Positions 25,249-40,599 of a stretch of DNA of 64,000 nucleotides are shown piece by piece (position 1 is the first letter of the stretch; each line of letters opens with the position of its first letter). Origin of the DNA: an uncultured Rhizobiaceae bacterium (lineage in GTDB: Bacteria > Pseudomonadota > Alphaproteobacteria > Rhizobiales > Rhizobiaceae); NCBI GenBank assembly GCA_951813045.1, contig CATOTF010000002.1, positions 3,410,001 through 3,474,000 on the forward strand, given 5' to 3'. The position numbers were made by a program, and so were the translations under genes. A model generated the notes under the pieces. It saw only the letters and a program-made list of their open reading frames with translations, was not told the origin of the DNA and ran no database searches.

Positions 25249-25257
25249 CAGACCGGC

Positions 25258-25536: not shown

Positions 25537-27830
25537 TACACAGTTCCCATATTGTTTTGGTGGGCGGACATTCCAACCACCAATTGCCCCAGCGCTATGC
25601 CACCATCATTGGGCGGAATTGACCCATAAGTGAGCACATTAAATCCGGCTGATTTGAGGTTATCGCTCAACAGGCGCACAAGCAATCGATTTTGAAAAAC
25701 CCCGCCGGTCAAGGCGACGGTTTTGCCGCCATTTTGTGACTTTACGACCTGTGCCCAGGCTTCCGCCCAACCGACGTGGAAACGGGCGGCAGCCAGTCCC
25801 GAACCGCCATGGTTGAGGTCCGCCCCCAATGCATCCCAGATCGGATCGGGATTAACAATGGCGGGGTCACCCGAAATAACCGTCAAAACATAGGGCTCCG
25901 GCAAGCCGTGTTCGTTGATCCAGCTTTGTGCCAATTCTTGCAAGTGCATCGCCGCCTCGCCTTCAAAGGATTGGCTTTCCGTCATAATTCCCAATGTGGC
26001 AGCAATTGCGTCAAATAATCTGCCGGCACTGGAGGCCAGGGGCGAATTGATGTCCGATTCGATGGCTGCACAGATTGTCGAAACGGGGAACCGGGCAAGC
26101 ATCCTTTGATAATTCTGCGGCCAATTCTCCGTTGACCCGTATCTGGCATGCAAGCGGGCCACCAAATTACGCCAGGGCTGCGTTGCTGCGGCATCTCCGC
26201 CTGGCATTGCAGCCGGGCTTAATGTGGCAATTCGCGTGGCGCTGCCATACGAGACTTGCAAGGCTTCGGCACCCCAGATGTCGCCATTGTGCCCCATGCC
26301 GAGCCCATCTTGAACCAATGCAAGAATATGTGCTTCGGCCCCCAGATTATTTTCCGCCATCTGCGAGGCTGCGTGGGCGTGGTGGTGCTGCACAGAGATC
26401 AGCGGCAGATTATTGTCCACCGCATATTGTTTTGCCAAACGGGTGGAATGGTACCCCGGGTGCATGTCGCAGACCACCAGTTCAGGTCGCACGTCAAACA
26501 GGTTTTCCAACAGGGTGATATTGCGGGTCAGGTCCTGCGCCGTTTTGAAATCGCTCAAATCACCGATGTGCTGCGAGACTATCGCCTGCTCGCCTTTTGC
26601 CAGCGCAAAGGCATTTTTCAAATCTGCCCCAAATGCGATGGCGTCCGGGTGACCTTGGAAACCACCAGGTAATGGAATGGGTGCGGGTGCAAGACCACGG
26701 GCACGCCTTAACACTTGCAGGCCTAAACTAGTTGATTGGACGAGGCTATCATCAACGCGGTTTTCAATTTCACGATTATGCAGAAGAAATGCATCGGCGA
26801 TCCCCGCCAATTCAGCTAGTGCCTCATCATTGCCGGTCACCTGTGGCGCGCTGCCCCTGTTGCCGCTGGTCATGACAAGCGGTCGATCAAAGTGCGCTAG
26901 CAAAAGGCGGTGAAGCGGGGAATAGGCAAGCATGATGCCGATAGTGTTTAATCCACAAAGTAGGGAGGGAGCTAATTCGGCTGAGGGTGCAACGGTTGCA
27001 AGGACGATTGGGGCCGCTGCTGACAACAGTAATTGTTCTTCTTTCGATGAGAGGCCAGCAAATTTGCGGGCCATCTCAATGTCGCGAACCATCACGGCAA
27101 AGGGTTTTGACGGGCGGTTTTTCCTTTGTCTTAGTGTCGTAACTGCGCTTTCATCACTTGCCAAACAGGACAGATGAAACCCGCCAACGCCACGCAAGGC
27201 AAGGATTTTGCCTTGCTTGATCAGATCAACTGCCCGCGATACGGGCTTATCACGATATTCACCTGTATCATCCTTGAACCACAATTGAGGGCCGCAGCTT
27301 GGGCAAGCGGTGGGTTGGGCGTGATATCTTCTGTCGTCAATAGAGCTGAATTCGGCAGCGCAGGTATCGCACACGGCGAATTTTGACATGGTGGTGTTGG
27401 CGCGATCATAAGGGACGGCCTGAATAATCGAAAACCGTGGCCCGCAATTTGTGCAATTCAAAAATGCATATCCATGTCGGCGATCAAGGGCATCACCCAG
27501 TTCACCGGCGCATTCATCACAAAGTGCAGCATCGGGCGCGACGCCAGTTTGGGCATCTCCCCCGCCACTTTCCCTAATTTCAAAAGGAAAGGGCAAAACC
27601 CCTTTGAATGATTCAACCCTGATTTGATGAATTTTCGCAAGCTTTGGCGCGCGTTCCAGCAGTTGCTGCTTTAATGCCTCAGCATTCTTAGCAGGTACTG
27701 CAATGTGGACCCCGTCGACGGTGTTTTGAACCCAACCGGGCAATGCCATTTCATTTATCAACCCATGTACAAATGGCCGGAAGCCCACCCCTTGCACAAT
27801 CCCTGATACGATGATCAGCGCAGAACTCAT
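25536..27830 (-). CDS. hypF: Carbamoyltransferase HypF
   Basis: HypF (764 aa) converts carbamoyl phosphate to a carbamoyl-adenylate and loads it onto the HypE C-terminal cysteine, the first step of CN ligand synthesis. Domains in order are an N-terminal acylphosphatase (GIVQGVGFRPFVHGL), two zinc-finger pairs (CDEC with CTNC, and CDTC with CPSC) between residues 105 and 185, a YrdC-like domain, and a Kae1-like C-terminal domain with VQHHHAHAAS and ALTGGVFQNRLL. Length is typical. Its ATG overlaps the stop of the upstream endopeptidase gene as ATGA. Confidence 0.96.
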   Translation of the reverse strand: MSSALIIVSGIVQGVGFRPFVHGLINEMALPGWVQNTVDGVHIAVPAKNAEALKQQLLERAPKLAKIHQIRVESFKGVLPFPFEIRESGGGDAQTGVAPDAALCDECAGELGDALDRRHGYAFLNCTNCGPRFSIIQAVPYDRANTTMSKFAVCDTCAAEFSSIDDRRYHAQPTACPSCGPQLWFKDDTGEYRDKPVSRAVDLIKQGKILALRGVGGFHLSCLASDESAVTTLRQRKNRPSKPFAVMVRDIEMARKFAGLSSKEEQLLLSAAAPIVLATVAPSAELAPSLLCGLNTIGIMLAYSPLHRLLLAHFDRPLVMTSGNRGSAPQVTGNDEALAELAGIADAFLLHNREIENRVDDSLVQSTSLGLQVLRRARGLAPAPIPLPGGFQGHPDAIAFGADLKNAFALAKGEQAIVSQHIGDLSDFKTAQDLTRNITLLENLFDVRPELVVCDMHPGYHSTRLAKQYAVDNNLPLISVQHHHAHAASQMAENNLGAEAHILALVQDGLGMGHNGDIWGAEALQVSYGSATRIATLSPAAMPGGDAAATQPWRNLVARLHARYGSTENWPQNYQRMLARFPVSTICAAIESDINSPLASSAGRLFDAIAATLGIMTESQSFEGEAAMHLQELAQSWINEHGLPEPYVLTVISGDPAIVNPDPIWDALGADLNHGGSGLAAARFHVGWAEAWAQVVKSQNGGKTVALTGGVFQNRLLVRLLSDNLKSAGFNVLTYGSIPPNDGGIALGQLVVGMSAHQNNMGTV

Positions 27831-28315
27831 GTTTCCAGGCTGCTTAAAACTTCAAATGCCATATCAATGGCGCGGGGAACGGCAACTTCAACATCTTTGT
27901 GCATTTTTGTATCAAACGCGTCGGGATCAGATGGTTGGCAACCAATGATACGAACCAGCGTTGGCAACACACCGACAGCACTTGCGAGCGTCATGGCACG
28001 GACCGGTGTTGCATAATGAACATCAGCAAAGAAGTTGCGCTTTTCTTCATCCGAAAAACTGTCCACATCGGGTAATTCGGGCTCCAGCAGCCAGAGTTGG
28101 CCGACTTTGCCACCGCGGTCAAACGCATCAAAAAGGATGAGCGCATCGTACCCCCGCATCAGTTCCTGAACCAGATGTATTCCACCGATACCGGTTTCCT
28201 GAACAACCACGGTTTCGCTCAATCGCGGGTCTAGCTTCATTTGTGCGGCCGCTTTTACGCCAAAAGCATCATCACCCTTTAGCTCGTTTCCAACTCCCGC
28301 AACCAATACAGGCAT
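27827..28315 (-). CDS. Hydrogenase maturation endopeptidase (M52 family)
   Basis: A 162-aa nickel-dependent protease that removes the C-terminal tail of the large subunit after nickel insertion. It has the M52 pattern: GVGNELKGDDAFGVKAA at the start (Asp-Asp where many have Asp-Glu), FDAFDRGGKVGQLW in the middle and HYATPVRAMTLASAVG with the expected histidine. It follows the Rieske-like gene by 3 nt and overlaps hypF. The likely substrate is the large subunit of this operon, whose tail after His604 is 22 residues long. Confidence 0.88.
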   Translation of the reverse strand: MPVLVAGVGNELKGDDAFGVKAAAQMKLDPRLSETVVVQETGIGGIHLVQELMRGYDALILFDAFDRGGKVGQLWLLEPELPDVDSFSDEEKRNFFADVHYATPVRAMTLASAVGVLPTLVRIIGCQPSDPDAFDTKMHKDVEVAVPRAIDMAFEVLSSLET

Positions 28316-28318
28316 TGA

Positions 28319-29026
28319 TCAAAACGACGGCATGATTGGCTCAAATGGCATGCCAAACCCGATCAGCAAACGTCCCTTGACATCGGTCTTGGTTGGAAAA
28401 CATTCTAGCCCGTTGCCGCCGCCCAATCTTGCCCCGTTGCGCATATCGTAGCTACATCCGGGGCCGTGTGGGCAGAGCCAGGACACGCCGTCGAGCCTGC
28501 CGGTGGTCATGACGTCATTATGGGTTGGGCAATTGGCTTCCAGCGCCAGGTGCTGGCCATCAACGCGCGAAACTAGCACAGACCCTTCCTCCATCTGACA
28601 GATGAAAGCTTCCCCTTCTTCTGGTAGATTATCCAAAGGTGCCGGTGACCAATGGGCCGGGTCCTGCCCGAAAAGTTCTGTCGGTTCGGCATCCGCATCC
28701 GGTGGGATGAAATCCCAGACTTTTTGACACGCGGGTTCGTCTGGCGGCAACAGGTCGTACATGCCCATCAGCGTATTGATGGCAGGGTCTGTGATAACCT
28801 GTTCCAGCACCCCTTCCTTGAACAGCCGCACCAGCCGGTGCAGGGCTTCACGGTGCAGGGCATCGACCCCGTCCATGGCGCCAAATACACGCGCTTTGAC
28901 GTCCTCGTCTTCGATCTCATCCAGTGAGGTCAGCATGGAGCCTGCTTGTGCGACCAGGTCCTGCCATTCTTCATTGGTACGGTAACCGACCAGACCCTGC
29001 CGCCCGCTCTCATCGGAAATCGTCAT
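28319..29026 (-). CDS. Rieske-like protein of the hydrogenase operon
   Basis: A 235-aa soluble protein with two parts. Residues 10-90 are a helical segment (WQDLVAQAGSMLTSLDEIED, then ALHREALHRLVRLFKEGVLE) resembling the N-terminal helical part of proteins found beside group 1h hydrogenases. Residues 130-235 form a Rieske-like beta domain. Its cluster motif runs C166-P-T-H169, then 15 residues, then C185-P-H187, with C191 just after. Canonical Rieske proteins have CxH first and CxxH second, so the spacing is reversed here. It probably carries a [2Fe-2S] cluster and could take electrons from the hydrogenase. That role is inferred from the operon position. Confidence 0.75.
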   Translation of the reverse strand: MTISDESGRQGLVGYRTNEEWQDLVAQAGSMLTSLDEIEDEDVKARVFGAMDGVDALHREALHRLVRLFKEGVLEQVITDPAINTLMGMYDLLPPDEPACQKVWDFIPPDADAEPTELFGQDPAHWSPAPLDNLPEEGEAFICQMEEGSVLVSRVDGQHLALEANCPTHNDVMTTGRLDGVSWLCPHGPGCSYDMRNGARLGGGNGLECFPTKTDVKGRLLIGFGMPFEPIMPSF

Positions 29027-29035
29027 TGATAATCC

Positions 29036-29407
29036 CTAATGATGGTGGTGTTCGTGATCGCAAATCTCGTCACCTTCGCAGCAACCGGCATTGCATTCCC
29101 CGTGAGTGCCTTGTTGAAACTCGGTAAAGCTTTCGTAGAACATGGCACCGGCCTTGCGTTTGCCCGTATCACTAAAACGATAGGCGTTGCCGTCTTTGCT
29201 CAGCGTTCCGTCTTCGGCAAGTTCAGCCATAACTTCCACCACAATATCCGCCTCATTCTTGAGAAAAGGCATCATGGATTGCGGTGTGAACGTATCGCCA
29301 AATCCTTCGCCCTGATACCAATAGCAAATTTGCAGCACGTCCTCGCGCACGATCATCCGGTCAAGGGCTGTGGTTTGGCCGGTAATCTGGCTGTCAGTCT
29401 GGCTCAT
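29036..29407 (-). CDS. Small hydrogenase-operon protein with Cys/His-rich tail
   Basis: A 123-aa protein of unknown function. Residues 17-85 look like a small winged-helix-type fold (EDVLQICYWYQGEGFGD, then EVMAELAEDGTLSKDGNAYR). The C-terminal 20 residues are strikingly metal-binding: ECNAGCC, then EICDHEHHHH at the very end. Four histidines and five cysteines in that tail suggest nickel storage or delivery to the maturing large subunit. The start overlaps the preceding stop as ATGA. Proteins of this kind occur beside other high-affinity hydrogenases, but I know of no tested function. Confidence 0.7.
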   Translation of the reverse strand: MSQTDSQITGQTTALDRMIVREDVLQICYWYQGEGFGDTFTPQSMMPFLKNEADIVVEVMAELAEDGTLSKDGNAYRFSDTGKRKAGAMFYESFTEFQQGTHGECNAGCCEGDEICDHEHHHH

Positions 29408-30060
29408 ATGCTTGCTCCTGAACGTTTCACAGCGTGATTTTCTATGAAAGGCTTGACCGGCGTCAAGGTGTCGGGGGATTTTTCCTGTAGTTGGACACCT
29501 GTACGGTGGCCATTTCTGGCGATATCGGCAGCCATAGCGATAATACGCTGTCGCTGTTCCAACGGTGAAAATCCAAGATGCTGGGTTAAAGCCAGTTCAT
29601 CCTGGCCCCAGCCCTCGCTGTCAGCAATCACAAGCCGCCCGAATGTGTCAGCGGGCATGTCGGCCTCAACCGTAAAACATTCATCGGGCCAAGCCTTGAA
29701 ATATTCGCCGATCATCAATGTGTTCTCCAAATCAACAATCCCTGTCACCGCCTCGTATACACGTTCCTGCACCGCCAGCTCATCGGCGGGACCACCATGC
29801 CATGAACACGCATGAACATCCCCCGGCTGTCTGGAGACCGCGTTTAATCCGATCATGACAATCCGATCAGGACGGGGCATTTCATTGCTTTGAAATTTTT
29901 GCACGATGTGCACCGGGCTCCAGGTGAAATTTTCAACCGTGATGTGCGGCGCATCGGAAAACTCTGTTTCAAGACTGCTCATCAGCGGTGGGCCCAGCGG
30001 GAAACTGTCGAGGATTGCTGTATATCCGACAATCCCCACCAATGTTGACAGGCCACCCAT
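29404..30060 (-). CDS. Degenerate M52 protease-like protein of the hydrogenase operon
   Basis: A 218-aa protein whose first 170 residues line up, as read by eye, with the M52 hydrogenase-protease fold: GIVGYTAILDSFPLGPPLM for the first loop and RIVMIGLNAVSRQPGDVHA for the second. The metal-binding acidic residues expected in these two loops are not where active enzymes have them (DSFP, GLNAV). It may thus be a non-catalytic chaperone of large-subunit maturation. The gene lies 4 nt after the large-subunit stop. A true endopeptidase is encoded further down the operon. The assignment is tentative; it could be an unrelated conserved operon protein. Confidence 0.5.
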   Translation of the reverse strand: MGGLSTLVGIVGYTAILDSFPLGPPLMSSLETEFSDAPHITVENFTWSPVHIVQKFQSNEMPRPDRIVMIGLNAVSRQPGDVHACSWHGGPADELAVQERVYEAVTGIVDLENTLMIGEYFKAWPDECFTVEADMPADTFGRLVIADSEGWGQDELALTQHLGFSPLEQRQRIIAMAADIARNGHRTGVQLQEKSPDTLTPVKPFIENHAVKRSGASI

Positions 30061-30064
30061 AATT

Positions 30065-31945
30065 TTAGTCGATACCGCAAGCGCAGGTTGTTACCTCGCG
30101 CGTCACCACCCGATCGGACCCTTCAACCATCACATGGGTGGTACATGGCATGCAGGGGTCGAACGAGCGCAGGGCGCGCAGAATATCGATGCCCTGAAAA
30201 TCATGCTCGTCCTTATAGGCGGTTTCTACAATCGGCGTATTGCGAACCGCCTGCTCATAAGGGCCGGGTTCGCCCCAGGGTGTCGCCGGACAGGCGTTGA
30301 TCGTTGACGGGGTGACAATCTGGTAATTGGCCAATAACCCGTCCTTGATCTCGCAATGATGCGACAAGAACCCGCGTCCGGCACCCCAAAAACCAGCACC
30401 GATGGCATGGCCTTTTTTGGGAATCTCAAAAGGCGTAGCCACCTTCTTTTCACCCTGTTTTTGCAGGTCGAAAGCCCGGACAAGATTTTCCATCGTCACC
30501 ATCAGGTTGAACCCGATGGCATAGGCGCGGGCACGGTTACGTTCAAACGCATTCCAAACGTCAGGAATATGCCATTCCAGATTGGCTGCGGGCAGTTTTT
30601 CGCCTTTGGGAATGTTCAGCTTCAGGCTGTGGCCGGTGGATTCGAAATATTCACTGTCAGGGATTTTTTGCGCCAGCGCAGAAATATAGACCCGCGCATA
30701 GGCGCCCGCTTCAAAGGTTTTACGGTCCCAAGTGGGGGTAGTTGACCAGCTATAACGCTCTTTCCAGTTTTGCGCACCGGGGCGCGGAATGGTGGTTTTA
30801 TTCCATGGATGGTTGGGCGAAAGCGGGTTACCCAGCGGGTCTGTCTTGAAGGGGTAATCATCCCAGTTTTCGTAATAGGAGTGTTCAACGAATTCTTCCA
30901 GACCCACGTTGATGTCCGTCAGCCTTGTGGTGACCAGTTTACCGTCAACCACAACGCCGGGAGTAGACCAGCGCTTTTCACCCCATTCATTGCAGTTTTC
31001 GTAGGTCGCATCGTAATAGTCTTCGTGGTCCCACTGGCCCAGATCAACCATGGTTGCGGGCATGCGGCCACATTCTTTGTATTTGGGGTTCACCTTGTAG
31101 AAAAAGTCGAAAACATCATCCCAAATCGCGATGCATTTTTTGGAATAATCAAAGAACTGCTGAATGCGCAGGTAGAATTCATTGAACGTTGAGGTGGTGA
31201 TAGTCGTGGTTACGCCGCCTGGAATAATCGTCTCAGGGTGCGGATACTTACCACCCAATAGCACATAGGCCTCACGGGCAACCCGCGTCATTTGCAGGGC
31301 CTCAAGGTAGAGTTTTCCGGTCAGCGGATTAAGGTCCGTCATGATCTCGGCAATGGTATCGTAACCGTGGATGTCCTTGCCGGGGGCCGCTTCTTTAACA
31401 GCAGCGTCCCACACCTCGGGGTTTGTTGCCTTGACCAGGCTTTCGGAAAAATCCGGGCCAGAAAGCACAAACAGATGCAACGGGTTATCGTAAAGATATT
31501 CGCAGCTTAAAAGCAGGTTACGCACGACAATGCCGAGCGGTGGTGGCTTGATGCCGAGTGCCATTTCAACCGAAAGGGCAGATGCCGTCGAGTGCACACC
31601 ACCGCAAACGCCACAAGCACGTGACGATATGAACGCCGCATCACGCGGATCACGCCCGCGCAGAATGACTTCGTAGCCTCGAAACAGGGTGGCCATGGCG
31701 TTGGTGTCGATTACTGTGCCTGCTTCCAGATCAACAGTGGAATGAAACGCAAGCGCGCCCGCAACCCGGGTGACCGGATCGAAATCGATGTCAGCCAATT
31801 GACCATTTTTCACTGCCAGCTCGCGCAATTTATCCTGACGTTCCTCCAACGTGCGCGTTTGATATTCGTAAGGATTTTTCATCCCCTCGATGAGATGAGC
31901 CACACCGTGCTCGTCAAACTCAATCGGCAGATTTTCAAAACACAT
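30065..31945 (-). CDS. [NiFe] hydrogenase large subunit, group 1h/1l-like
   Basis: The 626-aa catalytic subunit that splits H2 at a NiFe(CN)2CO site. Active-site cysteines are C111 and C114 in RACGVCGGVHS and C598 and C601 in DPCMPCTTH. After His604 a 22-residue tail, ending with a Cys-Ala-Cys, should be removed by the operon's endopeptidase. The RACGVCGG form of the first motif, the overall length and the operon content suggest the high-affinity, oxygen-tolerant group 1h/1l branch. I cannot fix the subgroup without alignment. It is unusual that five small membrane-protein genes separate it from the small-subunit gene. Confidence 0.92.
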   Translation of the reverse strand: MCFENLPIEFDEHGVAHLIEGMKNPYEYQTRTLEERQDKLRELAVKNGQLADIDFDPVTRVAGALAFHSTVDLEAGTVIDTNAMATLFRGYEVILRGRDPRDAAFISSRACGVCGGVHSTASALSVEMALGIKPPPLGIVVRNLLLSCEYLYDNPLHLFVLSGPDFSESLVKATNPEVWDAAVKEAAPGKDIHGYDTIAEIMTDLNPLTGKLYLEALQMTRVAREAYVLLGGKYPHPETIIPGGVTTTITTSTFNEFYLRIQQFFDYSKKCIAIWDDVFDFFYKVNPKYKECGRMPATMVDLGQWDHEDYYDATYENCNEWGEKRWSTPGVVVDGKLVTTRLTDINVGLEEFVEHSYYENWDDYPFKTDPLGNPLSPNHPWNKTTIPRPGAQNWKERYSWSTTPTWDRKTFEAGAYARVYISALAQKIPDSEYFESTGHSLKLNIPKGEKLPAANLEWHIPDVWNAFERNRARAYAIGFNLMVTMENLVRAFDLQKQGEKKVATPFEIPKKGHAIGAGFWGAGRGFLSHHCEIKDGLLANYQIVTPSTINACPATPWGEPGPYEQAVRNTPIVETAYKDEHDFQGIDILRALRSFDPCMPCTTHVMVEGSDRVVTREVTTCACGID

Positions 31946-31978
31946 AGAGGGTCACTTTCATGGTCATAATCATATTAT

Positions 31979-32251
31979 TCATTTGCTGTTGGCCACCTTG
32001 ACGATCGCCGCAAGATTGCCATTTGCAGCAAGCAGTGGTGGCAACAGGGCTGCCAAGCCGGTATTGATATCGTCGATTTTGCCGTTCAACGGCACGGTGT
32101 TGTCACGTATTGCGACCAGTCCACCTGCCAGTTTTTCGAGGTGATCACCGCCCTTTTTCAAAGCCAGATATATCCCGATCAGGTGATAGGCGACCACAAC
32201 CACGATGACCAGAACCAGAACGAGTGAGATAATTGCAAGCGTCGTAATCAT
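31979..32251 (-). CDS. Single-pass membrane protein, type A (fifth of five)
   Basis: A 90-aa protein with one N-terminal membrane helix (TLAIISLVLVLVIVVVVAYHL). A predicted amphipathic or coiled segment follows: GGDHLEKLAGGLVAIRDNT, then LNGKIDDINTGLAALLPPLL. ATG 32251 is chosen over an upstream start at 32296 because it directly follows the stop of the preceding gene and has GAGG within that gene's end. It resembles the third protein of the set (pattern G-D-xx-LxKLxxGLxAI, later LNxxLxAI). It lies immediately before the large-subunit gene. A role in anchoring the hydrogenase to the membrane is inference. Confidence 0.78.
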   Translation of the reverse strand: MITTLAIISLVLVLVIVVVVAYHLIGIYLALKKGGDHLEKLAGGLVAIRDNTVPLNGKIDDINTGLAALLPPLLAANGNLAAIVKVANSK

Positions 32252-32252
32252 G

Positions 32253-32546
32253 TCAGCTGGCCTCCGCCCGTTTTGATAAAATGCCGGCCACAACACCGGT
32301 TTTTTCGTCGATTGCCTCAGCCACAGGGATCATGGCACCTGCGGTTGCATAGGTGTCGTCAAGAGCGGGTACGGCCTCGGTGTGGCCAGCAATCTTTACC
32401 CCCGCCTCCAACATATCGTTTAAATAGCCTTCAATATTGCGAGCTGCTGTCAGCGCGCGAGACAATAAAGATACAGCCAGCGGCACAATAACGACCACCA
32501 CGACTATCAGCGTCACGATCCAAATGGTGAGGGCAAAGGTGCTCAT
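32253..32546 (-). CDS. Single-pass membrane protein, type B (fourth of five)
   Basis: A 97-aa protein. Residues 4-28 are a hydrophobic helix (ALTIWIVTLIVVVVVIVPLA). About 65 polar residues follow, with AARNIEGYLNDMLEAGVKIA, the segment HTEAVPALDDTYATAGAM, and a basic end. It shares with proteins one and two of the set a pattern of KIA/NT followed by V-xAL-xxT and a terminal A-x-AID. Its ATG overlaps the stop of the upstream gene as ATGA and the next start lies one base past its own stop. It is in the hydrogenase operon. No family is recognised. Confidence 0.78.
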   Translation of the reverse strand: MSTFALTIWIVTLIVVVVVIVPLAVSLLSRALTAARNIEGYLNDMLEAGVKIAGHTEAVPALDDTYATAGAMIPVAEAIDEKTGVVAGILSKRAEAS

Positions 32547-32839
32547 TTCTTTTTCTCCTGCGCCAGCAGTGCGGTATGGACACCGTCTAAAGTCGCGTCC
32601 ACCGCCATTAATCCTCCGGCGATGGCGCCGAGCTTTTCGTTCAACGGGGGTGCTGCTGCCGGTAAATGTGAAGTTTCGCGTTCGATGGCTCGAAGGCCAA
32701 GGCGAAGTTTCGCCAGATAGCTGTCGCCCTTGCCACCAATGCTCTCAAGAGCTGCAACGATGCGGATGAGCGCGATAGCGACAATACCTAGAAACACCAA
32801 TGCGGCCAGGCAGGTGATGAAGGTTAAAAGCGTAATCAT
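32543..32839 (-). CDS. Single-pass membrane protein, type A (third of five)
   Basis: A 98-aa protein starting MITLLTFITCLAALVFLGIV at ATG 32839, which overlaps the upstream stop as ATGA; a longer frame to 32884 is ignored. One membrane helix spans residues 3-27. The soluble part has GGKGDSYLAKLRLGLRAIER, then PPLNEKLGAIAGGLMAVDAT, close in pattern to the last protein of the set. The C-terminus is lysine-rich. No known domain is recognised. The position between hydrogenase subunit genes implies a link with the enzyme. Confidence 0.78.
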   Translation of the reverse strand: MITLLTFITCLAALVFLGIVAIALIRIVAALESIGGKGDSYLAKLRLGLRAIERETSHLPAAAPPLNEKLGAIAGGLMAVDATLDGVHTALLAQEKKK

Positions 32840-33168
32840 TTGCCACCCCCGCGATGCCAGATGCATGTCGGGCAGCTTGGGCAACCTTCTGCGTGGTCCT
32901 TGATAGCCTCGGCGCTTGCTGCAATGCGGCCAGCGCGGGCCAAAATCCCCTCAACATGTTCGTAGGTTTTATAGATCGCGGCGATGTGGATCGTGTTATT
33001 CGCCACTCTTTGCCCATTCGCCCAAACGGTCGCAACTTCATCGTCAATGGCACCGGCGGTTTTGACAATACGCATCAAAAGCACAGCGACAACCACAGTT
33101 ACAACGGCGACCACAACAACCGCCAGCCACCAACTTGCAATCGGGTCCGTTCCTGAAATTAGTCCCAT
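32836..33168 (-). CDS. Single-pass membrane protein with C-terminal CxxCxxC (second of five)
   Basis: A 110-aa protein. The membrane helix is at residues 13-35 (WWLAVVVVAVVTVVVAVLLM). A helical part follows (AGAIDDEVATVWANGQRVAN, then YEHVEGILARAG). The end differs from its four relatives: C96-P-S-C99-P-T-C102, then IWHRGGGK. Three regularly spaced cysteines and a nearby His (105) could bind an iron-sulfur cluster, zinc or nickel. It is therefore the best candidate in the set for a redox or metal role. Its stop overlaps the next start. Confidence 0.78.
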   Translation of the reverse strand: MGLISGTDPIASWWLAVVVVAVVTVVVAVLLMRIVKTAGAIDDEVATVWANGQRVANNTIHIAAIYKTYEHVEGILARAGRIAASAEAIKDHAEGCPSCPTCIWHRGGGK

Positions 33169-33179
33169 TCCAACTCCCC

Positions 33180-33464
33180 TTATGCTGCGGTTTCGGTTTG
33201 CGTTTCGTGTGATACTGCGGCAACGACAGCACTGGCATTATCGTCAATGGCCCGCGCTCCATCCAAAATCTGAGAGGCAACGGTATTGGTATCGCGCAAA
33301 GCCCAGACTGAACGGGTATTGATGTCAATGTCGGCCACTACGCCGCTTGCGGTCTTCGCTAGCGACAAAATGCGCATGGCCTGTTGAAGAATGCCGATCA
33401 GCAATGCAGCCACGACCAGCACCACGATAAGTCCCACCAAAAATCCAGCTGTCCACAATGTCAT
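33180..33464 (-). CDS. Single-pass membrane protein, type B (first of five)
   Basis: A 94-aa protein directly after the hydrogenase small subunit, 9 nt from its stop. The membrane helix is at residues 4-27 (WTAGFLVGLIVVLVVAALLI). The rest is polar and helical (ILSLAKTASGVVADIDINTR, then SVWALRDTNTVASQILDGAR), ending in a Glu/Thr/Ala-rich tail. It is similar in layout to the second and fourth proteins. There is no signal-peptide cleavage site, so it should stay in the inner membrane with the C-terminus probably in the cytoplasm or periplasm according to charge; I cannot settle which. Confidence 0.78.
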   Translation of the reverse strand: MTLWTAGFLVGLIVVLVVAALLIGILQQAMRILSLAKTASGVVADIDINTRSVWALRDTNTVASQILDGARAIDDNASAVVAAVSHETQTETAA

Positions 33465-33473
33465 ATCCCTCTC

Positions 33474-34763
33474 CTATTCAGCCGCTATGGGCATATCATC
33501 GGATTTGTTTGCGGCTTCGTCCAGATAGCGTGATGCTGATTTCTGCAAGGCTTTTTGGCGGGCGGAGCCCGGTGTAAACTCGGTTCCTTGCGCCTTGATT
33601 TTTTCGTAAAAGAAACTGACCGCGCCCTCTAACGAGCCTTTCTTACCGTCAACATTTGCCCATCCGGAAGGCACATTACCATCCTTGTTCCAGCGCTCGG
33701 TCATATTTCGGCTGCTTTGGGTAAACCGCCTTAGATAGGAAATAAAGGAGCCCGTGCCCCGCGAAATGTTGGAAGACACCATGGTGCCCGGTGGTTTCTT
33801 GTAAAACGGTGCGAAGGCGTCCGGAAAGCCGGGCATGGTGCAACCGATACAAATACCTCCGGTGTTCATGCAGCCGCCATTATGGCCGATGGCGCCGCGC
33901 GTTACCATGTTGCATTGAACCACCGGGCCCCAGCAGCCCAGTTCGACCAGACATTCTGCCTGTCCGTATTCGTCGGCAAATTTGCCCTCTTCATAATTAC
34001 CGGCACGCACACAGCCCCGGTGTACGGTGGATTTGAACATCCAGGCTGGGCGGCCTAATTCATCAAATTCTGGTAGCGGCCCAACCCCCGCTAAAAACAT
34101 CAGGACGGAAGCCACTGTTTCTGTGATGTTATCACCCAAAGGAGCACAACCCGGGATATTGACCGGCGGCAGGCCAAGGGTCGAAAGATAATCCTTGCCC
34201 AGATAATCCATCACCGACATGGCATTGGTCACATTGCCGGTTGCTGCTGGAATACCGCCCCAGGTGGCGCAGGTCCCAACGGCGATGACAGCTGCCGCAC
34301 CCGGCGCCAGATCTCGCAACCAATGGGCGGTGGGAATGGGTGTAGATACGCCATTTTCATCTTCTTCGGCACCCATGGCAGACCAATAACCGCCAAATTT
34401 CCCTGCAATATCCTCGTCCGCAACCGAGCCTTCCTGAATAACAACGTAAGGCGCACCCAGTTTGCCTTCCTTGGCGAGGTGGTGAGCCTTCAAAAACTCC
34501 TTACCAGCGGTCACAGAGAGCACCGGATGGTGAAGAATAACCTTTGGCAGGCCGGGGATTGACCCGGTAATCAATTGCTCGACCCTTGGGTTTTGCGCAC
34601 CGACAGCGGCAATGGAACACCCGTCGCAACTCATGCCCGCCAACCAGAAAGCGTGAACCTCGGTTACCGGGCCATCATCAAGACCAAAGCGAGGGAGATA
34701 GCCGTCAGACTTTGGAACGTTGGCTTTTGCACGAGTTTCAGAATCAGACCCAGAATCAAACAT
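33474..34763 (-). CDS. [NiFe] hydrogenase small subunit, group 1h/1l-like
   Basis: The 429-aa electron-transfer subunit. Proximal cluster motifs are C46-D-G-C49, GTC165ATWGG and PGC206AP. Medial and distal cluster ligands lie in HRGC (248-251), AECLVELGCWGPVVQC and GGCMNTGGICIGCTMPGFP. There is no twin-arginine signal and no C-terminal membrane helix, so the enzyme should face the cytoplasm. The Asp within the CDGC motif recalls the actinobacterial-type enzyme of Ralstonia eutropha, where an Asp is a proximal-cluster ligand. GGGAGG lies 5 nt before the ATG. It is the first gene of the structural operon behind a MerR-type promoter. Confidence 0.92.
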   Translation of the reverse strand: MFDSGSDSETRAKANVPKSDGYLPRFGLDDGPVTEVHAFWLAGMSCDGCSIAAVGAQNPRVEQLITGSIPGLPKVILHHPVLSVTAGKEFLKAHHLAKEGKLGAPYVVIQEGSVADEDIAGKFGGYWSAMGAEEDENGVSTPIPTAHWLRDLAPGAAAVIAVGTCATWGGIPAATGNVTNAMSVMDYLGKDYLSTLGLPPVNIPGCAPLGDNITETVASVLMFLAGVGPLPEFDELGRPAWMFKSTVHRGCVRAGNYEEGKFADEYGQAECLVELGCWGPVVQCNMVTRGAIGHNGGCMNTGGICIGCTMPGFPDAFAPFYKKPPGTMVSSNISRGTGSFISYLRRFTQSSRNMTERWNKDGNVPSGWANVDGKKGSLEGAVSFFYEKIKAQGTEFTPGSARQKALQKSASRYLDEAANKSDDMPIAAE

Positions 34764-34789
34764 GGCAACCTCCCGATGCGTCGCGCGAG

Positions 34790-34821
34790 AGAATACAGGA
34801 TTGCCCTAGGGATAAGGTCAA
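34790..34821 (-). promoter_or_regulatory. MerR-type promoter of the hydrogenase operon
   Basis: Reading the minus strand, TTGACC (34821-34816) and TATTCT (34795-34790) are separated by 20 nt, longer than the usual 17. The spacer is centred on the palindrome CCCTAGGG. Overlong spacers holding the operator are typical of MerR-family targets. The MerR gene is directly upstream and the small-subunit ATG is 26 nt past the -10 box. Confidence 0.65.
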
Positions 34822-34849
34822 GCAGAAACTTGCTTATATTTCAAGTGAG

Positions 34850-35266
34850 TTACCCCTTTTCACCATCGCACGAGCATGATTCCTGCAACAGGCCACAGAT
34901 ACATTTGCCGGATTTTGATGCGGGGGTTTGTATCAGGCTCAGAAAACGGGCTTCCAGATCTTCCTGCCGCCCCTGCATGACGGCGATTTCCAGCGACATT
35001 TCCTGACGCCGTTCATCCATAATGCTCAACAACCGCTCGCGCATCGTGTCTTCAGGTTCCGCCTGCAGCAAATCCCTGATGGTATCGAGCGACAGATTCA
35101 ATTGCCTCAGCGCTATGATCTTTTGGGCCAATTTGACCACTTCTTCGGGATAGTACCGATATCCGTTTTCTGCGCGTAAAGGTTTCGGTAACAGGCCAAT
35201 ACGTTCGTAATGGCGCAGCGTCTTGGTGGAGACTTGAAGAATAGCCGCTAACTCACCAATGCGCAT
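34850..35266 (-). CDS. MerR-family regulator with Cys-rich tail
   Basis: A 138-aa regulator. The N-terminal winged helix (MRIGELAAILQVSTKTLRHY, then ERIGLLPKP and NGYRYYP) is classic MerR. A long dimerisation helix follows. The C-terminus carries C122-I-C124 and C131-S-C133, a pattern suited to metal or redox sensing. It lies between the CooC-like ATPase gene (17 nt upstream) and the hydrogenase small subunit, on the same strand. It most likely controls the hydrogenase promoter at 34790-34821 and perhaps the cooC/GTPase divergent promoter. The signal is unknown; nickel is a plausible guess. Confidence 0.87.
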   Translation of the reverse strand: MRIGELAAILQVSTKTLRHYERIGLLPKPLRAENGYRYYPEEVVKLAQKIIALRQLNLSLDTIRDLLQAEPEDTMRERLLSIMDERRQEMSLEIAVMQGRQEDLEARFLSLIQTPASKSGKCICGLLQESCSCDGEKG

Positions 35267-35282
35267 TTGCGAGAACCTTGCT

Positions 35283-36059
35283 CTAGTTCAGCAAATCAAT
35301 GTTTGCCGCGATTTCGCGTATGGCTTCGACACCGGCAGACTGACTTGCATGGTCGTAAGGTGATTTCTCATCGCGCTCTGCCGCCACCATTTCTTCATCG
35401 TAAGGCACAACCCCGATAAGAGACATGTCGTGCTGGTCGCAAAACGTCTTGATGGCTTCCAGATCATCATCATTGCGCACTTTATTGGCGACAACCTTGA
35501 TGTGTTTTATGCCTAGTTCCTCAGCCAATGCAGCCGTCCGCATGCCCGCTTCAAGGGAGCGGTAATAGGGCTCGGCCACAACCAGCATCATATCCACATG
35601 GCGCGCTGTGCCGCGTTTGAGATGTTCAAGCCCCGCTTCCATGTCGGTCAATGTATGTTCGCCATAGGTGGTCAGTTCCGAGACCAAGCCCCGCACCGCC
35701 CGGTGGGAAGCGCACATGCAGCCTGAACCCGCAGTTCCGTGGGCCGGTTGACCCATGACGATCAGGTCGACGCCCGGAGCAGCTTCTGTAGCAAACTGGT
35801 CCATGATCTCGTCTTTGGAGATTGCGGGCACCATCATCATCACCCCGTCAACCTCTTCACCGCGCTTCATCACTGACGATGGAATATAGATGATCGCATC
35901 CGCCTGATCGCGGCTCAAGCCAAGGGTCAGGGCAAGGTTGGGGTTGGGGTCACCATCAATCGCCAGCATCTTGCGGCCATTTTCTGCGAAAACCCGCGCA
36001 AGTGTTCCTGCGATTGTGGTTTTACCGGAACCACCTTTTCCTACGGTTGCGATTTTCAT
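35283..36059 (-). CDS. CooC-type nickel-insertion ATPase
   Basis: A 258-aa MinD/CooC-family ATPase. The deviant Walker A is GKGGSGKTT (7-15). The segment GQPAHGTAGSGCMCASHRAV contains C114-x-C116, matching the CxC motif with which CooC dimers bind nickel or zinc. CooC normally serves nickel insertion into carbon monoxide dehydrogenase, but no cooS gene is present in the window. Here it precedes the MerR regulator and hydrogenase genes, so it may act in hydrogenase nickel delivery in place of HypB. That role is inference; service to a CODH encoded elsewhere is the alternative. Confidence 0.85.
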   Translation of the reverse strand: MKIATVGKGGSGKTTIAGTLARVFAENGRKMLAIDGDPNPNLALTLGLSRDQADAIIYIPSSVMKRGEEVDGVMMMVPAISKDEIMDQFATEAAPGVDLIVMGQPAHGTAGSGCMCASHRAVRGLVSELTTYGEHTLTDMEAGLEHLKRGTARHVDMMLVVAEPYYRSLEAGMRTAALAEELGIKHIKVVANKVRNDDDLEAIKTFCDQHDMSLIGVVPYDEEMVAAERDEKSPYDHASQSAGVEAIREIAANIDLLN

Positions 36060-36092
36060 GCGTTTTTCCCAAATAGACGGATAATCTGATTT

Positions 36093-36107
36093 ACCTTTTT
36101 AAAAGGT
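36093..36107. promoter_or_regulatory. Perfect dyad between divergent cooC-like and GTPase genes
   Basis: ACCTTTT-T-AAAAGGT is a perfect 15-nt inverted repeat in the 109-bp divergent gap. ACC...GGT ends are common in MerR-family operators. TTTACC and CATAAT flank its core on the plus strand. Another feature of this gap is the direct repeat AGAGATCAAG at 36126 and 36139. Confidence 0.55.
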
Positions 36108-36168
36108 TCTGCATAATCACTCCCCAGAGATCAAGCCTAGAGATCAAGTCCGGGGAACCGAACACCGC

Positions 36169-37119
36169 ATGTCTGACCGGTTCAAACTGACCATTCTCAC
36201 CGGGTTTTTGGGCGCTGGGAAAACCACATTGCTAAATGCGTGGCTTCAGCTGCCTGCTGCTGCTGGCACGGCAGTTTTGGTCAACGAATTCGGTGCGGTC
36301 GATGTCGACGGCCCAATATTGGACACCACGCTCAGCGACGACCCTCAGTCTGACAATCGCGTGATGAGCCTGCCGAACGGCTGCATTTGCTGCGAAGTAC
36401 AGGAGGATCTCGCAGAGGCCCTCGTTGCTTTGGCGGACAGCGCACAGGCAACACACGGGATTTTGGAAACAACTGGTCTGGCTGACCCCGGTGCCATCCT
36501 GCGCGGTGTCGCCCACGACCCCCGGTTAAAGACGCGCATTGAGATTTCAGCCACCGTCTGCGTTGCCGGTGCCACCGACATTATCAGCCAACGTTCGAAA
36601 TTTGTGGAAGCGCGGGCGCAACTGGCTTTGGCGGACCGGATTATCATTTCAAAAGGCGACCTCCTTGATGAAAAAGCACTTGAAGAGGTGACAGGCGAAT
36701 GTGCAGGTCTCAATCCTCTGGCAGAGCTGCATGTGCGAAGCGACGATAACGATTTGACCCAATTGTTCGCACCGGCAAATGCCGGGCATGAATTGCCCGC
36801 CCACGTCCATCATCACTCGCACGGAATTGATACTTTTTCCGTCACGCTATCGGGCCCATTGGACGGTGATCTGTTTCGCGACATCCTGTCGTTCTGGATC
36901 ATGCGCCACGCAGAAAAACTGCTGCGCATGAAGGGTATTGTGAAGTTAGCTGGTGATCCACAACCCCGCCTTTTAAATGGCGTGCATGATGTTTTTACGT
37001 CTAACCCCGCCCCAACAGCCAAAGTAGATTCCGGCGGTGGTACATTGGTATTTATAGGTACGGATTTACCGCAGGATAGTTTGCGGGCAGATTTGGAACG
37101 TTGTGTATCAATACCTTAG
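36169..37119 (+). CDS. COG0523 (CobW-like) metal-chaperone GTPase
   Basis: A 316-aa G3E-family GTPase. The P-loop is GFLGAGKTTLLN (11-22), followed by the metal-binding CICC motif in LPNGCICCEVQED near residue 67 and by the guanine-specificity region IISKGDLLD. A His-rich stretch (HVHHHSHG) links the GTPase and CobW C-terminal domains. Such proteins carry zinc, cobalt, nickel or iron to client proteins and are relatives of HypB. Lying divergent from the CooC gene and ahead of a probable metal importer, it may supply nickel to the hydrogenase. The metal is not determined by the sequence. Confidence 0.87.
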   Translation: MSDRFKLTILTGFLGAGKTTLLNAWLQLPAAAGTAVLVNEFGAVDVDGPILDTTLSDDPQSDNRVMSLPNGCICCEVQEDLAEALVALADSAQATHGILETTGLADPGAILRGVAHDPRLKTRIEISATVCVAGATDIISQRSKFVEARAQLALADRIIISKGDLLDEKALEEVTGECAGLNPLAELHVRSDDNDLTQLFAPANAGHELPAHVHHHSHGIDTFSVTLSGPLDGDLFRDILSFWIMRHAEKLLRMKGIVKLAGDPQPRLLNGVHDVFTSNPAPTAKVDSGGGTLVFIGTDLPQDSLRADLERCVSIP

Positions 37120-37199
37120 TACCAGCCGGACAACTAACTCTTGCAACAGCATCAATCCCGTGGCCAAATCTGCGACATGAAATTTGGCGATAAAGAACG

Positions 37200-37739
37200 T
37201 TGAAATTGACAAAACTTGCCATAGCAGATGTCGACGGAACCATTGAGTTGGAGTTCGAAGACTTAAAGAAGTTCCACGGCACCCGCAGCATCTGCGGCTT
37301 GACTGTTGGATTCACCGTGCTTCACGCTGCATGGCAGGTGCTTTCGCCCGATAAGCCGGTGAAACGTGAATGTGTGGATATCCAGTCTGCTTTTCCGGGC
37401 CCTGGAGCCCGTGACGCGTTCGAGATGGTAACCCGCGCCGTCAGCCGGGAAAAATACACGATTGCAACTGACGTTACTCCCGGCCCAATGATCGCTGAGG
37501 CTGCCAAAGGTGCCTATTGGTTCAAGGTCACAATGGATGGTGGCAGCGTAGAACTTGGCTTGAAACCTGACGTTGTGCCCAGGGACTTTTTGAAATTACG
37601 CCGTCTTCTCCTATCAGACGATGCGAGCGATGAGGAAGCAAAGACCTTCCGCTCTATCCAACACGGGTTTTCAAAAAGCCTGCTGGGTATGGAGCCATTG
37701 GACGCGGTCAATGTGTTGTCGAAAGACAGTGTGCAATGA
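37200..37739 (+). CDS. FmdE-like protein
   Basis: A 179-aa protein whose first half matches the FmdE family pattern: LKKFHGTRSICGLTVGFTVL (usual FHG-x-C-P-G-LxxG form), then VDIQSAFPGPGARDAFEMVT. The family is named from formylmethanofuran dehydrogenase operons of methanogens, but many bacterial members sit beside metal or oxyanion ABC transporters and lack a known activity. The start codon is TTG at 37200; the ATG at 37177 runs into a stop after eight codons. The stop overlaps the ATG of the next gene as ATGA. A metal-binding role is possible because the family binds zinc. Confidence 0.6.
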   Translation: MKLTKLAIADVDGTIELEFEDLKKFHGTRSICGLTVGFTVLHAAWQVLSPDKPVKRECVDIQSAFPGPGARDAFEMVTRAVSREKYTIATDVTPGPMIAEAAKGAYWFKVTMDGGSVELGLKPDVVPRDFLKLRRLLLSDDASDEEAKTFRSIQHGFSKSLLGMEPLDAVNVLSKDSVQ

Positions 37740-38353
37740 ATACACCGGTCCCTCGTCTTGTTGGCCGCTTTTTGTCGCCCTATGTGCGGCGGGTTGCGGT
37801 GACGATGAACATTTACGGCATGCAGTTTGAACGGTTGATTCTGTCGGCCATTGGGGACGAGAAAGAACGCGAAAAAACCAATCCGGTCGGTCGGGTTCCC
37901 GCTCTTATTTTGAACGAAGATGAAACACTGATCGACAGTGCCGCCATTCTTGACCATCTTGATGAACTTGCAGGCCCAAAATCTGCGCTTATCCCCAAAA
38001 GTGGGCCGCGGCGCCGCAAGACTCTTTACCAGCTTGCCATAGCAACCGGCGCCATCGACCGTGCCATGGCTGCAAACGCCGAACGGCGCAGAGATAATGT
38101 TGACGAGGAAAGACTGGAAAGACTACTGCGTCAATCGGCAAACGGCTTTGCTGCACTCGAAATGGAACTGGCGAACAATGACTACTTCGGCGAACCGAAA
38201 CCGGGGCAGGCAGATGTAACAATCGTCATCGGGAAATCGTTTCTGGAGCATATATTTCCGGGCACTTTGCTACCTGACAAATTGCCTAATATATTTGGCC
38301 TATCCGACCGTTTGGAATTACTGGAAGCGTTTTCAAACGCCGGTATTGATTGA
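37736..38353 (+). CDS. Glutathione S-transferase-like protein
   Basis: A 205-aa protein with an N-terminal thioredoxin-like GST domain (LVGRFLSPYVRRVAVTMNIY, later NPVGRVPALIL and DSAAILDHLDE) and a helical C-terminal domain. The Ser at the FLSPYVRR position fits a catalytic serine. It is translationally coupled to the FmdE-like gene. Why a GST sits in a metal-handling operon is unclear; glutathione may be part of a metal chelate or be used for redox protection. The family call is good, the substrate unknown. Confidence 0.8.
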   Translation: MNTPVPRLVGRFLSPYVRRVAVTMNIYGMQFERLILSAIGDEKEREKTNPVGRVPALILNEDETLIDSAAILDHLDELAGPKSALIPKSGPRRRKTLYQLAIATGAIDRAMAANAERRRDNVDEERLERLLRQSANGFAALEMELANNDYFGEPKPGQADVTIVIGKSFLEHIFPGTLLPDKLPNIFGLSDRLELLEAFSNAGID

Positions 38354-38445
38354 CACCGAACCTGGCCAGAGTGAAAAATAGGGCGGCACATACTAGGCGC
38401 GAAAAGCGCAGGACGAAATGGAATATGTATCCGGGAGAACTTTGA

Positions 38446-39525
38446 ATGTTGAATAGAATTGGCGTTTTTTTAATCACGTGGTGTATGGCCTCATCCGCCT
38501 ACGCTGAACCGATTACCATCACCGACCAGCGCGACCGAAAGATTACGCTGGATGGCCAGCCGGAACGGGTTGTCACCATACCGATACCTGCGGCGTCAAT
38601 GTTCATTGCGGTTGATGGGGGCACCAAACGGTTGGCGGGCATGCATCAATTGTCCAAAACAGCGATCAAAGGGCGGATTTTACAAAAATTCTATCCGGAT
38701 GCCATGGCCATTCCGTCCAACATCACGGGCAAAGGCTTTAGTTTTGTCCCCAATGTGGAATCACTGTTGGCGCTCAATCCTGATCTGGTTTTCCAATGGG
38801 GGCACCTGAATGATGATATTATCGACCCGTTGGTGAATGCCGGTCTCAAGGTTGCGTTGATCAAAATCGGCAAGGAATCCTTCACCCGCCGCTGGTTGCA
38901 GATCATGGGGAAGGTGTTGGGTAAAGAGGAAAAAGCGGCCCAGATGATCGCCTGGCGTGATGAGGTCAAGGATCAGCTAAAAGCCAAGACCGACGCGATT
39001 TCACCCGAAGAACGCCCTCGTGTCTTGTATTTTATGAATTATCTTTCGAGACTCCGGGTCGCTGGCGGCAAGTCCTACAATAATTTCTACATTGACCTTG
39101 CAGGCGGAAAAAACGCGGCCTCGGAACTCGGCCTATTTGCCGAAGTCGGCCCCGAACAGGTCATTGCTTGGGACCCGGAGGTCATCCTGCTCAACGGGTT
39201 CGAGGCCAAATTATCCCCGGAAGATGTCTACAAGAATCCACTGTTTGCCGACCTTTCAGCGGTTAAAAACCGCCGCGTTTATAAAATGCCACTCGGGGGT
39301 TACCGTTGGGACCCGCCCAATCAGGAATCACCCCTGACATGGCTCTGGCTCAGCAAGGTTCTGCACCCGGAAAAATTTGACTGGGACATGGCCAAACGTA
39401 TCGATAAAAACTACCGCAATATCTACGGTCAGGGTGTCGATGCGGCAGATGTGAAAAACATCCTGCGGTTTGACATGAACGCCAGTGCTGCCAACTACAA
39501 TATCTTCGCACCTGATGGGAATTAA
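38446..39525 (+). CDS. Periplasmic substrate-binding protein of a FecBCD-type ABC importer
   Basis: A 359-aa binding protein of the class III (BtuF/FhuD) type. The signal peptide is RIGVFLITWCMASSAYA with cleavage before EPITITD. Family features are TDQRDRKITLDGQPERVVTI, NVESLLALNPDLVFQWG and PNQESPLTWLWLSKVLHPEKF near the end. No lipobox cysteine follows the signal. GGGAG precedes the ATG at the right distance. The ligand could be a siderophore, cobalamin, heme, molybdate or nickel complex. The GTPase and hydrogenase context favours a metal such as nickel, but the sequence does not decide it. Confidence 0.85.
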   Translation: MLNRIGVFLITWCMASSAYAEPITITDQRDRKITLDGQPERVVTIPIPAASMFIAVDGGTKRLAGMHQLSKTAIKGRILQKFYPDAMAIPSNITGKGFSFVPNVESLLALNPDLVFQWGHLNDDIIDPLVNAGLKVALIKIGKESFTRRWLQIMGKVLGKEEKAAQMIAWRDEVKDQLKAKTDAISPEERPRVLYFMNYLSRLRVAGGKSYNNFYIDLAGGKNAASELGLFAEVGPEQVIAWDPEVILLNGFEAKLSPEDVYKNPLFADLSAVKNRRVYKMPLGGYRWDPPNQESPLTWLWLSKVLHPEKFDWDMAKRIDKNYRNIYGQGVDAADVKNILRFDMNASAANYNIFAPDGN

Positions 39526-39549
39526 CACTGCTCCCGCCGGACCTGTGTA

Positions 39550-40599
39550 ATGGAAAACATCGCCACTGCGCAGGTGGAAAAAACCCGGTTCCGACCGGGT
39601 CTTTTTTCGCTGCTTGCGAGCATTCTCGTTATCAGCGGGCTGGCGTCGCTTGCGATTGGCCGGTTCGATGTGCCGTTGACCCATGTAGCGGGAATTTTGG
39701 CGTCGAACATACTGCCGATGGACCCGTGGTGGAGTTCGGTTGAAGCCCGTGTCGTCGACCTTATCCGCCTGCCGCGCATTCTGTTGGCTGGCATCGCCGG
39801 GGCGGGCCTTGCTGTGGCCGGGGCAGCGCTCCAGGGCATATTCCGCAACCCGCTTGTTGGCCCGCAGATCATCGGTGTTTCTTCCGGGGCCGCTTTTGGT
39901 GGTGCATTTGCAATCTTGATCTCGGAAAGCCGCCTGTTGCTCATCGGAGCGGCATTCGGTTTCGGGATGCTGGCCATCGTGATCGTTTACACCATCTCCC
40001 GCCAGCAGGGCCGCGCATCGATATTGATGCTGGTGCTATCCGGCATCGTCACCAGCGCATTTTTTTCAGCGTTAGTTTCCGTCACAAAATTCGTGGCCGA
40101 CCCTGACGATAAACTTCCAGCCATCGTTTTCTGGCTGATGGGGAGTTTCGCGTCTGCAAGTTATGACAAGGTCTTCCTAATCGCCATACCGGTCGTTGCG
40201 GGGTCAACGGTCATTTATATGATGCGGTTTCAGATCAACGTCCTGTCACTTGGGGACGAAGAAGCTCAAGCGCTGGGGCTCAAGGTGGAGAGAACCCGTT
40301 GGATTGCTCTCACAGCGATCGCGCTCATCAGTTCAGCTGTCGTGGCGGCCGCAGGGGTTATCGGATGGGTCGGACTTGTCATCCCCCATTTTGCCCGCAT
40401 GCTTATCGGGCCGGACCACAGGGTAATAATCCCCATATCGGCATTAATTGGTGCAACATATCTCATCCATGTCGATAATGTCGCGCGAACTGCGATTGCT
40501 GCTGAAATCCCCGTGGGGATCATCACCGCTCTCGTCGGTGCGCCGGTGTTTGGTTACCTTCTGCGACGCTCTGCCAACAAAGGGTGGACGACAGAGTGA
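39550..40599 (+). CDS. FecCD-family ABC importer permease
   Basis: A 349-aa integral membrane protein of the BtuC/FecCD family with about ten helices. Landmarks are RLPRILLAGIAGAGLAVAGA, the following LQGIFRNPLVGPQIIGVSSG, ALGLKVERTRW for the ATPase-contacting loop, and GWVGLVIPHFARMLIGPDHR. It is 24 nt downstream of the binding-protein gene and overlaps the ATPase gene. It should form a homodimeric channel with the ATPase. The substrate is that of the binding protein. Confidence 0.9.
   Translation: MENIATAQVEKTRFRPGLFSLLASILVISGLASLAIGRFDVPLTHVAGILASNILPMDPWWSSVEARVVDLIRLPRILLAGIAGAGLAVAGAALQGIFRNPLVGPQIIGVSSGAAFGGAFAILISESRLLLIGAAFGFGMLAIVIVYTISRQQGRASILMLVLSGIVTSAFFSALVSVTKFVADPDDKLPAIVFWLMGSFASASYDKVFLIAIPVVAGSTVIYMMRFQINVLSLGDEEAQALGLKVERTRWIALTAIALISSAVVAAAGVIGWVGLVIPHFARMLIGPDHRVIIPISALIGATYLIHVDNVARTAIAAEIPVGIITALVGAPVFGYLLRRSANKGWTTE

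Follow-up and report, generated by a model that had tools for sequence, protein, structure and literature searches.

Passages in PMC9561532, which refers to Ortiz et al. 2021 (PNAS, doi 10.1073/pnas.2025322118; its reference 24), describe group 1l [NiFe]-hydrogenase clusters in which five short predicted transmembrane proteins, named HylTM1–5, are encoded between the two subunit genes. The same source reports group 1l for Deinococcales. It also describes group 1m, which differs in having only two small proteins with a single transmembrane helix (82–92 aa) and in having adjacent subunit genes. In oligotrophic desert soils, no hydrogenase lineage is more abundant than group 1l, according to a part of PMC8528921. 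According to passages of PMC10305171, group 1l enzymes are also found in sea water, and two isolates with such enzymes showed no substantial H2 consumption.

Among hydrogenases without a cytochrome b subunit, the electron route to the respiratory chain has been solved for Huc only, in those parts of the literature that were covered. Huc is the group 2a enzyme of M. smegmatis, in which the helices of HucM form a tetrameric hydrophobic tube leading from Huc to the membrane, and the quinone travels 94 Å (PMC10017518, in part). HucM is a single 188-residue protein present in four identical copies and peripherally associated with the membrane.

The nearest annotated relatives of the hydrogenase described here are group-1h-like enzymes encoded on C. 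necator pHG1, Methylocystis parvus pMpar-2 and a plasmid of Kitasatospora sp. NBC_00039, with about 40–43% identity in the large subunit and 45–49% in the small subunit; neighbouring genes annotated as 'HypE' in these operons are in fact the small subunits, 45–49% identical to HylS. The subunit genes are adjacent in all three operons examined, 10–64 nt apart, and the three 13.7-kb loci yielded nothing below E 0.088 for the HylTM proteins. Cytoplasmic hydrogenases of this kind can therefore manage without HylTM genes.

The hydrogenase locus

The window, by which we mean the whole stretch of 64,000 nucleotides that was analysed, from an uncultured Rhizobiaceae bacterium, contains the features listed in Table 1. 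A sequence-only reading had described five short single-helix membrane proteins of 90–110 aa between the small and large subunit genes, and the coordinates and translations agree with this. It had also taken five copies to be unusual, which cannot be upheld: five is the number published for group 1l clusters (PMC9561532, in the passages covered), and the layout, the number and the names of the five are thus already in print. Nothing that we tested differs between the window and the group 1l layout, and its assignment to group 1l rests on that layout. In a tree of HylL and 1h-like large subunits, the HylL sequences separated from the three 1h-like ones on long branches with a support of 100/100.

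Table 1. Features of the hydrogenase island (positions are those of the window).
Feature	Position	Strand	Match or remark
CobW-type GTPase and FecB/FecCD/ABC importer	36169-41336	+	PF02492, PF01497, PF01032, PF00005
CooC/MinD-type ATPase, upstream of hylS	35283-36059	-	PF01656
MerR regulator, directly upstream of hylS	34850-35266	-	PF13411
hylS-type [NiFe]-hydrogenase small subunit, 429 aa	33474-34763	-	Pfam PF14720, PF01058
HylTM1, 94 aa, type B	33180-33464	-	
HylTM2, 110 aa, type B	32836-33168	-	core GQRVANNTIHI, tail H-x3-C-x2-C-x2-C
HylTM3, 98 aa (from ATG), type A	32543-32839	-	core LAKLRLGLRAI
HylTM4, 97 aa, type B	32253-32546	-	
HylTM5, 90 aa (from ATG), type A	31979-32251	-	
hylL-type [NiFe]-hydrogenase large subunit, 626 aa	30065-31945	-	Pfam PF00374, E 2.6e-75
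218 aa protein, next gene after hylL	29404-30060	-	no Pfam match; same-place protein in L029, L030, L031
123 aa protein, Cys/His-rich C-terminus	29036-29407	-	no Pfam match; similar protein in L029
235 aa protein, Rieske-like C-terminal half (imperfect motif)	28319-29026	-	43% identical to L029 counterpart
Hydrogenase maturation protease (HycI family)	27827-28315	-	PF01750
hypF	25536-27830	-	Pfam
hypC-like	25258-25536	-	read from sequence, outside Pfam scan
hypD	24106-25248	-	Pfam
hypE-like (AIRS)	23057-24283	-	Pfam

From hylS through HylTM1, 2, 3, 4 and 5 to hylL, the genes are separated by 9, 11, −4, −4, 1 and 33 nt. HylL carries both nickel-binding cysteine pairs in the motifs RACGVCGGVH and DPCMPCTTH, which are invariant in 11 aligned loci, and no second PF00374 gene was found in the genome of the host. 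The genome of Deinobacterium chartae, used as a control, matched PF00374 as well. The absence of a cytochrome b subunit from the operon, as proposed from the sequence, was borne out by a Pfam scan of 21 ORFs in the island (23057–41336, leaving out the ORF at 37736–38353 and the hypC-like gene), which showed no such family. No Pfam family was assigned to any of the five HylTM proteins at E ≤ 0.01. The best match, between HylTM5 and SP_C-Propep (E 0.015), fell like all the others under the curated cut-offs, and no name from Pfam or NCBIfam was accepted for these proteins.

No twin-arginine signal was seen at the N-terminus of HylS. The nearest solved small subunit was C. necator HofK (5aa5, E 6.7e-102). 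At its C-terminus, HylS continues for about 65 residues beyond the point where its solved and group-1h-like relatives stop: the solved matches 5aa5_A and 7uur_D finish at HylS residue 361, and the three plasmid-encoded group-1h-like small subunits align only as far as residues 361–364. The extension is kept in 10 loci, with P365, S366, G367, W368, F385, Y386, P398, Q403, L406 and Q407 invariant, and is possibly a docking tail.

Conservation and types of the five proteins

A contig scan with exact peptide patterns identified 11 loci with large subunits 75–90% identical to that of the window. A phylum search around the genome carrying L007 found 4 of 52 genomes positive and added three new loci (L029, L030 and L031), with HylL identities of 77%, 66% and 66%, that of L030 being 66%. 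Of the 14 loci found, 11 are distinct, intact operons that carry all five HylTM genes in the order seen in the window (L002, L004–L009, L011, L012, L029 and L030), making 12 with the window, which is more than chance would give. The three loci that were not counted are L003, whose five proteins are the same as those of L002; L010, which lies at a contig end and retains only HylTM4 and HylTM5; and L031, which is broken. In L031 (5396–7087), the small subunit is disrupted and HylTM2 lacks its membrane part, reflecting either decay or an assembly error. The sampled operons include none from Bacteroidota, Chloroflexota, Actinomycetota or Deinococcota.

The hydrogenase was not found in any of 14 congeners of the host or of 22 further members of its family, and a class-wide search at E ≤ 1e-100 returned 1 positive genome out of 385, namely the host itself. 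The nearest known large subunits (90%) come from Pseudaestuariivita atlantica (Rhodobacterales) and from a Paracoccaceae MAG. The simplest reading is that the host acquired the operon by horizontal gain. A Paracoccaceae MAG (G454) carried two diverged operons on two contigs (L002 and L012), due either to a true duplication by transfer or to contamination of the bin.

The five proteins had been sorted by pattern into two types, A (HylTM3 and HylTM5) and B (HylTM1, HylTM2 and HylTM4), with the expectation that they would resemble each other in profile alignments. Both the division and its exact membership were recovered by hhalign and by a phylogenetic tree. When tail profiles with the membrane helix removed (10–11 sequences per family) were aligned by hhalign, HylTM3–HylTM5 matched at 93–95%, HylTM1–HylTM4 at 95–96%, HylTM2–HylTM4 at 91–95% and HylTM1–HylTM2 at 54%; none of 20 column shuffles reached any of these within-type scores. 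Tails of different types were mostly unmatched, with HylTM2–HylTM3, HylTM3–HylTM4 and HylTM4–HylTM5 scoring no better than shuffles. A weak link joined HylTM1 to the type A tails (10–22%, 0 of 20 shuffles as high), and the type A profile also picked up HylTM1, at E 1.5e-6 to 9e-4, in 4 of 11 genomes. The tree, based on 62 proteins from 13 loci (L010 contributing HylTM4 and HylTM5 only) and on few columns with long branches, separated type A from type B with a support of 100/98 and placed HylTM1 to HylTM5 in one clade each (86/85, 100/96, 99/90, 98/90 and 93/83, respectively). Because each of the five forms a single clade, the duplications are probably older than the split of all the sampled operons. 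We found no published description of the HylTM paralogy, the topology or the HylTM2 motif in the open-licence literature searched.

Across the genomes searched, the linkage of the HylTM families to the hydrogenase was exclusive. All 38 type B and all 28 type A profile matches in the 11 positive genomes, to which the type B search was confined, fell inside the operons when checked against the locus coordinates. The type A profile had no other match in sets of 4, 83, 369 and 398 genomes at cut-offs of 1e-8, 1e-8, 1e-6 and 1e-6, respectively; these sets overlap and are not summed, and the searches of 385, 369 and 398 genomes scored at most 12–14 candidates from a first look at each genome. In the 385 genomes of the class, only three weak type A matches lay outside the operons (E 3.5e-5 to 7.7e-5). 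They were rejected as dispersed homologues, since they sit in open frames of 454–526 codons. Homologues occurring mostly away from hydrogenase genes would have spoken against the sequence-only reading; none was found at E ≤ 1e-6 in the genomes searched.

Predicted topology and possible roles

Lysine and arginine were more abundant after the membrane helix than before it in all 52 HylTM copies from 11 loci, and 47 of the 52 had none before it, in a comparison of 20 residues on the C-terminal side with short N-terminal sides of 0–27 residues. By the positive-inside rule, the tails are therefore predicted to lie in the cytoplasm, and as HylS has no visible Tat signal, the enzyme and the tails would be on the same side of the membrane. 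The hydrophobicity of the tails had a period of 3.42–3.54 residues, reached by 3, 0, 0, 1 and 0 of 1000 shuffles for HylTM1 to HylTM5. AlphaFold2 confidently modelled HylTM5 as one helix (residues 2–89, mean pLDDT 89.1, pTM 0.41) and, with less confidence, HylTM2 as one helix with a loose end (residues 9–95, mean pLDDT 73.9, pTM 0.35), in whose tail some blocks had a pLDDT of 61–66. At 1.5 Å per residue, a helix made up of the roughly 60 cytoplasmic residues would extend some 90 Å. Against solved structures, the best listed matches of the type A profile were the designed coiled coils 8a3k and 8qae (E 1e-10), and the best type B match was a designed four-helix protein (E 0.0075). The matches indicate that the HylTM proteins are coiled-coil-like rather than kin to the matched structures, and they say little about partners. 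HucM was absent among the best 60 of 210 type A matches and all 39 type B matches. A histidine in the HylTM5 helix (AYHL) was considered as a haem ligand and rejected, being missing in L006, L008–L012 and L030.

The predicted topology, the heptad-like tails and the helix models agree with a role of HylTM1–5 in anchoring HylSL to the membrane, which is likely, and the evidence renders the anchor or scaffold interpretation of the sequence-only reading more likely than before. The reading that we prefer, and to which we give an even chance, is that the five proteins form a hetero-oligomeric helical stalk that anchors cytoplasmic HylSL and perhaps brings quinone to it. Each protein would have its N-terminus outside, cross the membrane once and continue as an amphipathic, heptad-like cytoplasmic helix of about 60 residues. 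The five different helices would bundle side by side into a membrane stalk, on which HylSL would dock, perhaps via the extension at the end of HylS and the Cys/His residues that close HylTM2. The last iron–sulfur cluster would then meet quinone leaving the membrane along the stalk, and quinone reduction would take place at or in it. Five single clades, kept in fixed order and number in 12 operons, suit five distinct places in one complex, and the periodicity and the helix models, which are of single proteins only, are compatible with a tube to the membrane. The exclusive linkage to the hydrogenase, the uniform charge pattern and the lack of a cytochrome b family among the 21 ORFs scanned also speak for this reading. 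The low pTM values of the HylTM5 and HylTM2 models and the low-pLDDT blocks in the HylTM2 tail count against a stalk, as do the little that the coiled-coil matches reveal about partners, the three group-1h-like operons that lack HylTM genes, and the two group 1l isolates without substantial H2 consumption. By analogy, the best reading is that such a stalk works like HucM, although no kinship was detected. Both are helical, amphipathic and membrane-associated, and both accompany a hydrogenase without a cytochrome b subunit, but the HylTM proteins belong to five distinct families of 90–110 residues, each with a membrane-spanning helix, in place of a homotetramer of one scaffold.

The predicted topology and the heptads fit a mere tether as well as a conduit. 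The five helices might thus only hold HylSL at the membrane, with the electrons leaving via the Rieske-like protein of the operon to a quinone reductase elsewhere; this is the main rival of the stalk, and we consider it somewhat unlikely. The presence of this Rieske/NifU-like partner (Table 1) favours it and argues against quinone delivery through the stalk, for the protein could carry the electrons instead. M. smegmatis needs the comparable proteins HucE and HhyE to oxidize H2 (PMC6883350, in part), and the Rieske-like protein is a candidate carrier of the same kind. Its N-terminus has a 25% match to a 'NifU family protein' encoded beside the C. necator hydrogenase. It has a weak NCBIfam ferredoxin match (E 0.0058) and no Pfam match at E 0.01. 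Against the tether stands the usual Rieske motif, which is not kept: the window has CPTH as the first ligand pair, and L029 has CMVNH. Moreover, one helix would be enough for a tether, yet five families are kept in the 12 distinct intact operons. It is highly improbable that the HylTM proteins are assembly or targeting factors that aid insertion or maturation without being subunits of the working complex. The island is rich in maturation genes, but the HylTM genes lie apart from these, between the structural genes; their order never varied among the loci seen, and two of their junctions overlap by 4 nt.

The tail of HylTM2 raises a further alternative, namely that it binds an iron–sulfur cluster or another metal and adds a redox step on the way from HylS to the membrane. 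The H-x3-C-x2-C-x2-C end is found in 8 of the 12 intact loci (the window, L002, L004, L008, L009, L011, L012 and L030) and in the tail remaining in the broken L031, and it is probably old, because it is present in L030, with its distant HylL. It is missing in the other four (L005, L006, L007 and L029), which means that not every locus needs it; on these grounds, the idea that HylTM2 holds an essential metal site was rejected. On the HylL tree, the distribution of the motif needs at least 2–3 changes, although the motif may have had a single origin. The tail is loose in the AlphaFold2 model (pLDDT about 49–61), and three cysteines and one histidine could equally well bind zinc or nickel. We regard a redox role for the tail as quite improbable. 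The most detailed version of the stalk, a hetero-pentameric (or multiple-of-five) alpha-helical tube that spans the membrane, reaches some 90 Å into the cytoplasm, delivers quinone to HylS, arose independently of HucM and bears the HylTM2 metal site at its far end, is in our judgement unlikely. Should the HylTM proteins be a second stalk of independent origin, delivery of quinone over long distances would be a design that recurs, and no peculiarity of mycobacteria. The layout reported here is known from the literature and the genome is new; the points added are modest singly and together define a specific, testable structure. Structural and deletion work would find concrete targets in the division into two types, in the predicted topology, in the tail of HylS and in the motif of HylTM2.

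Neighbouring genes of the island

Several genes beside the operon have features suggestive of metal handling. The 123 aa protein has a Cys/His-rich tail (CNAGCCEGDEICDHEHHHH), its counterpart in L029 ends alike, and it may handle nickel. The MerR regulator ends in a cysteine cluster (CICGLLQESCSC); regulators with similar tails occupy the same place in L002 and L005, and it is possibly a metal or redox sensor of the island. The FecB/FecCD/ABC importer probably serves nickel uptake. The L029 operon is also flanked by FecCD- and binding-protein-like genes, and importer genes beside both operons suggest an island that travels and brings along its own supply of metal.
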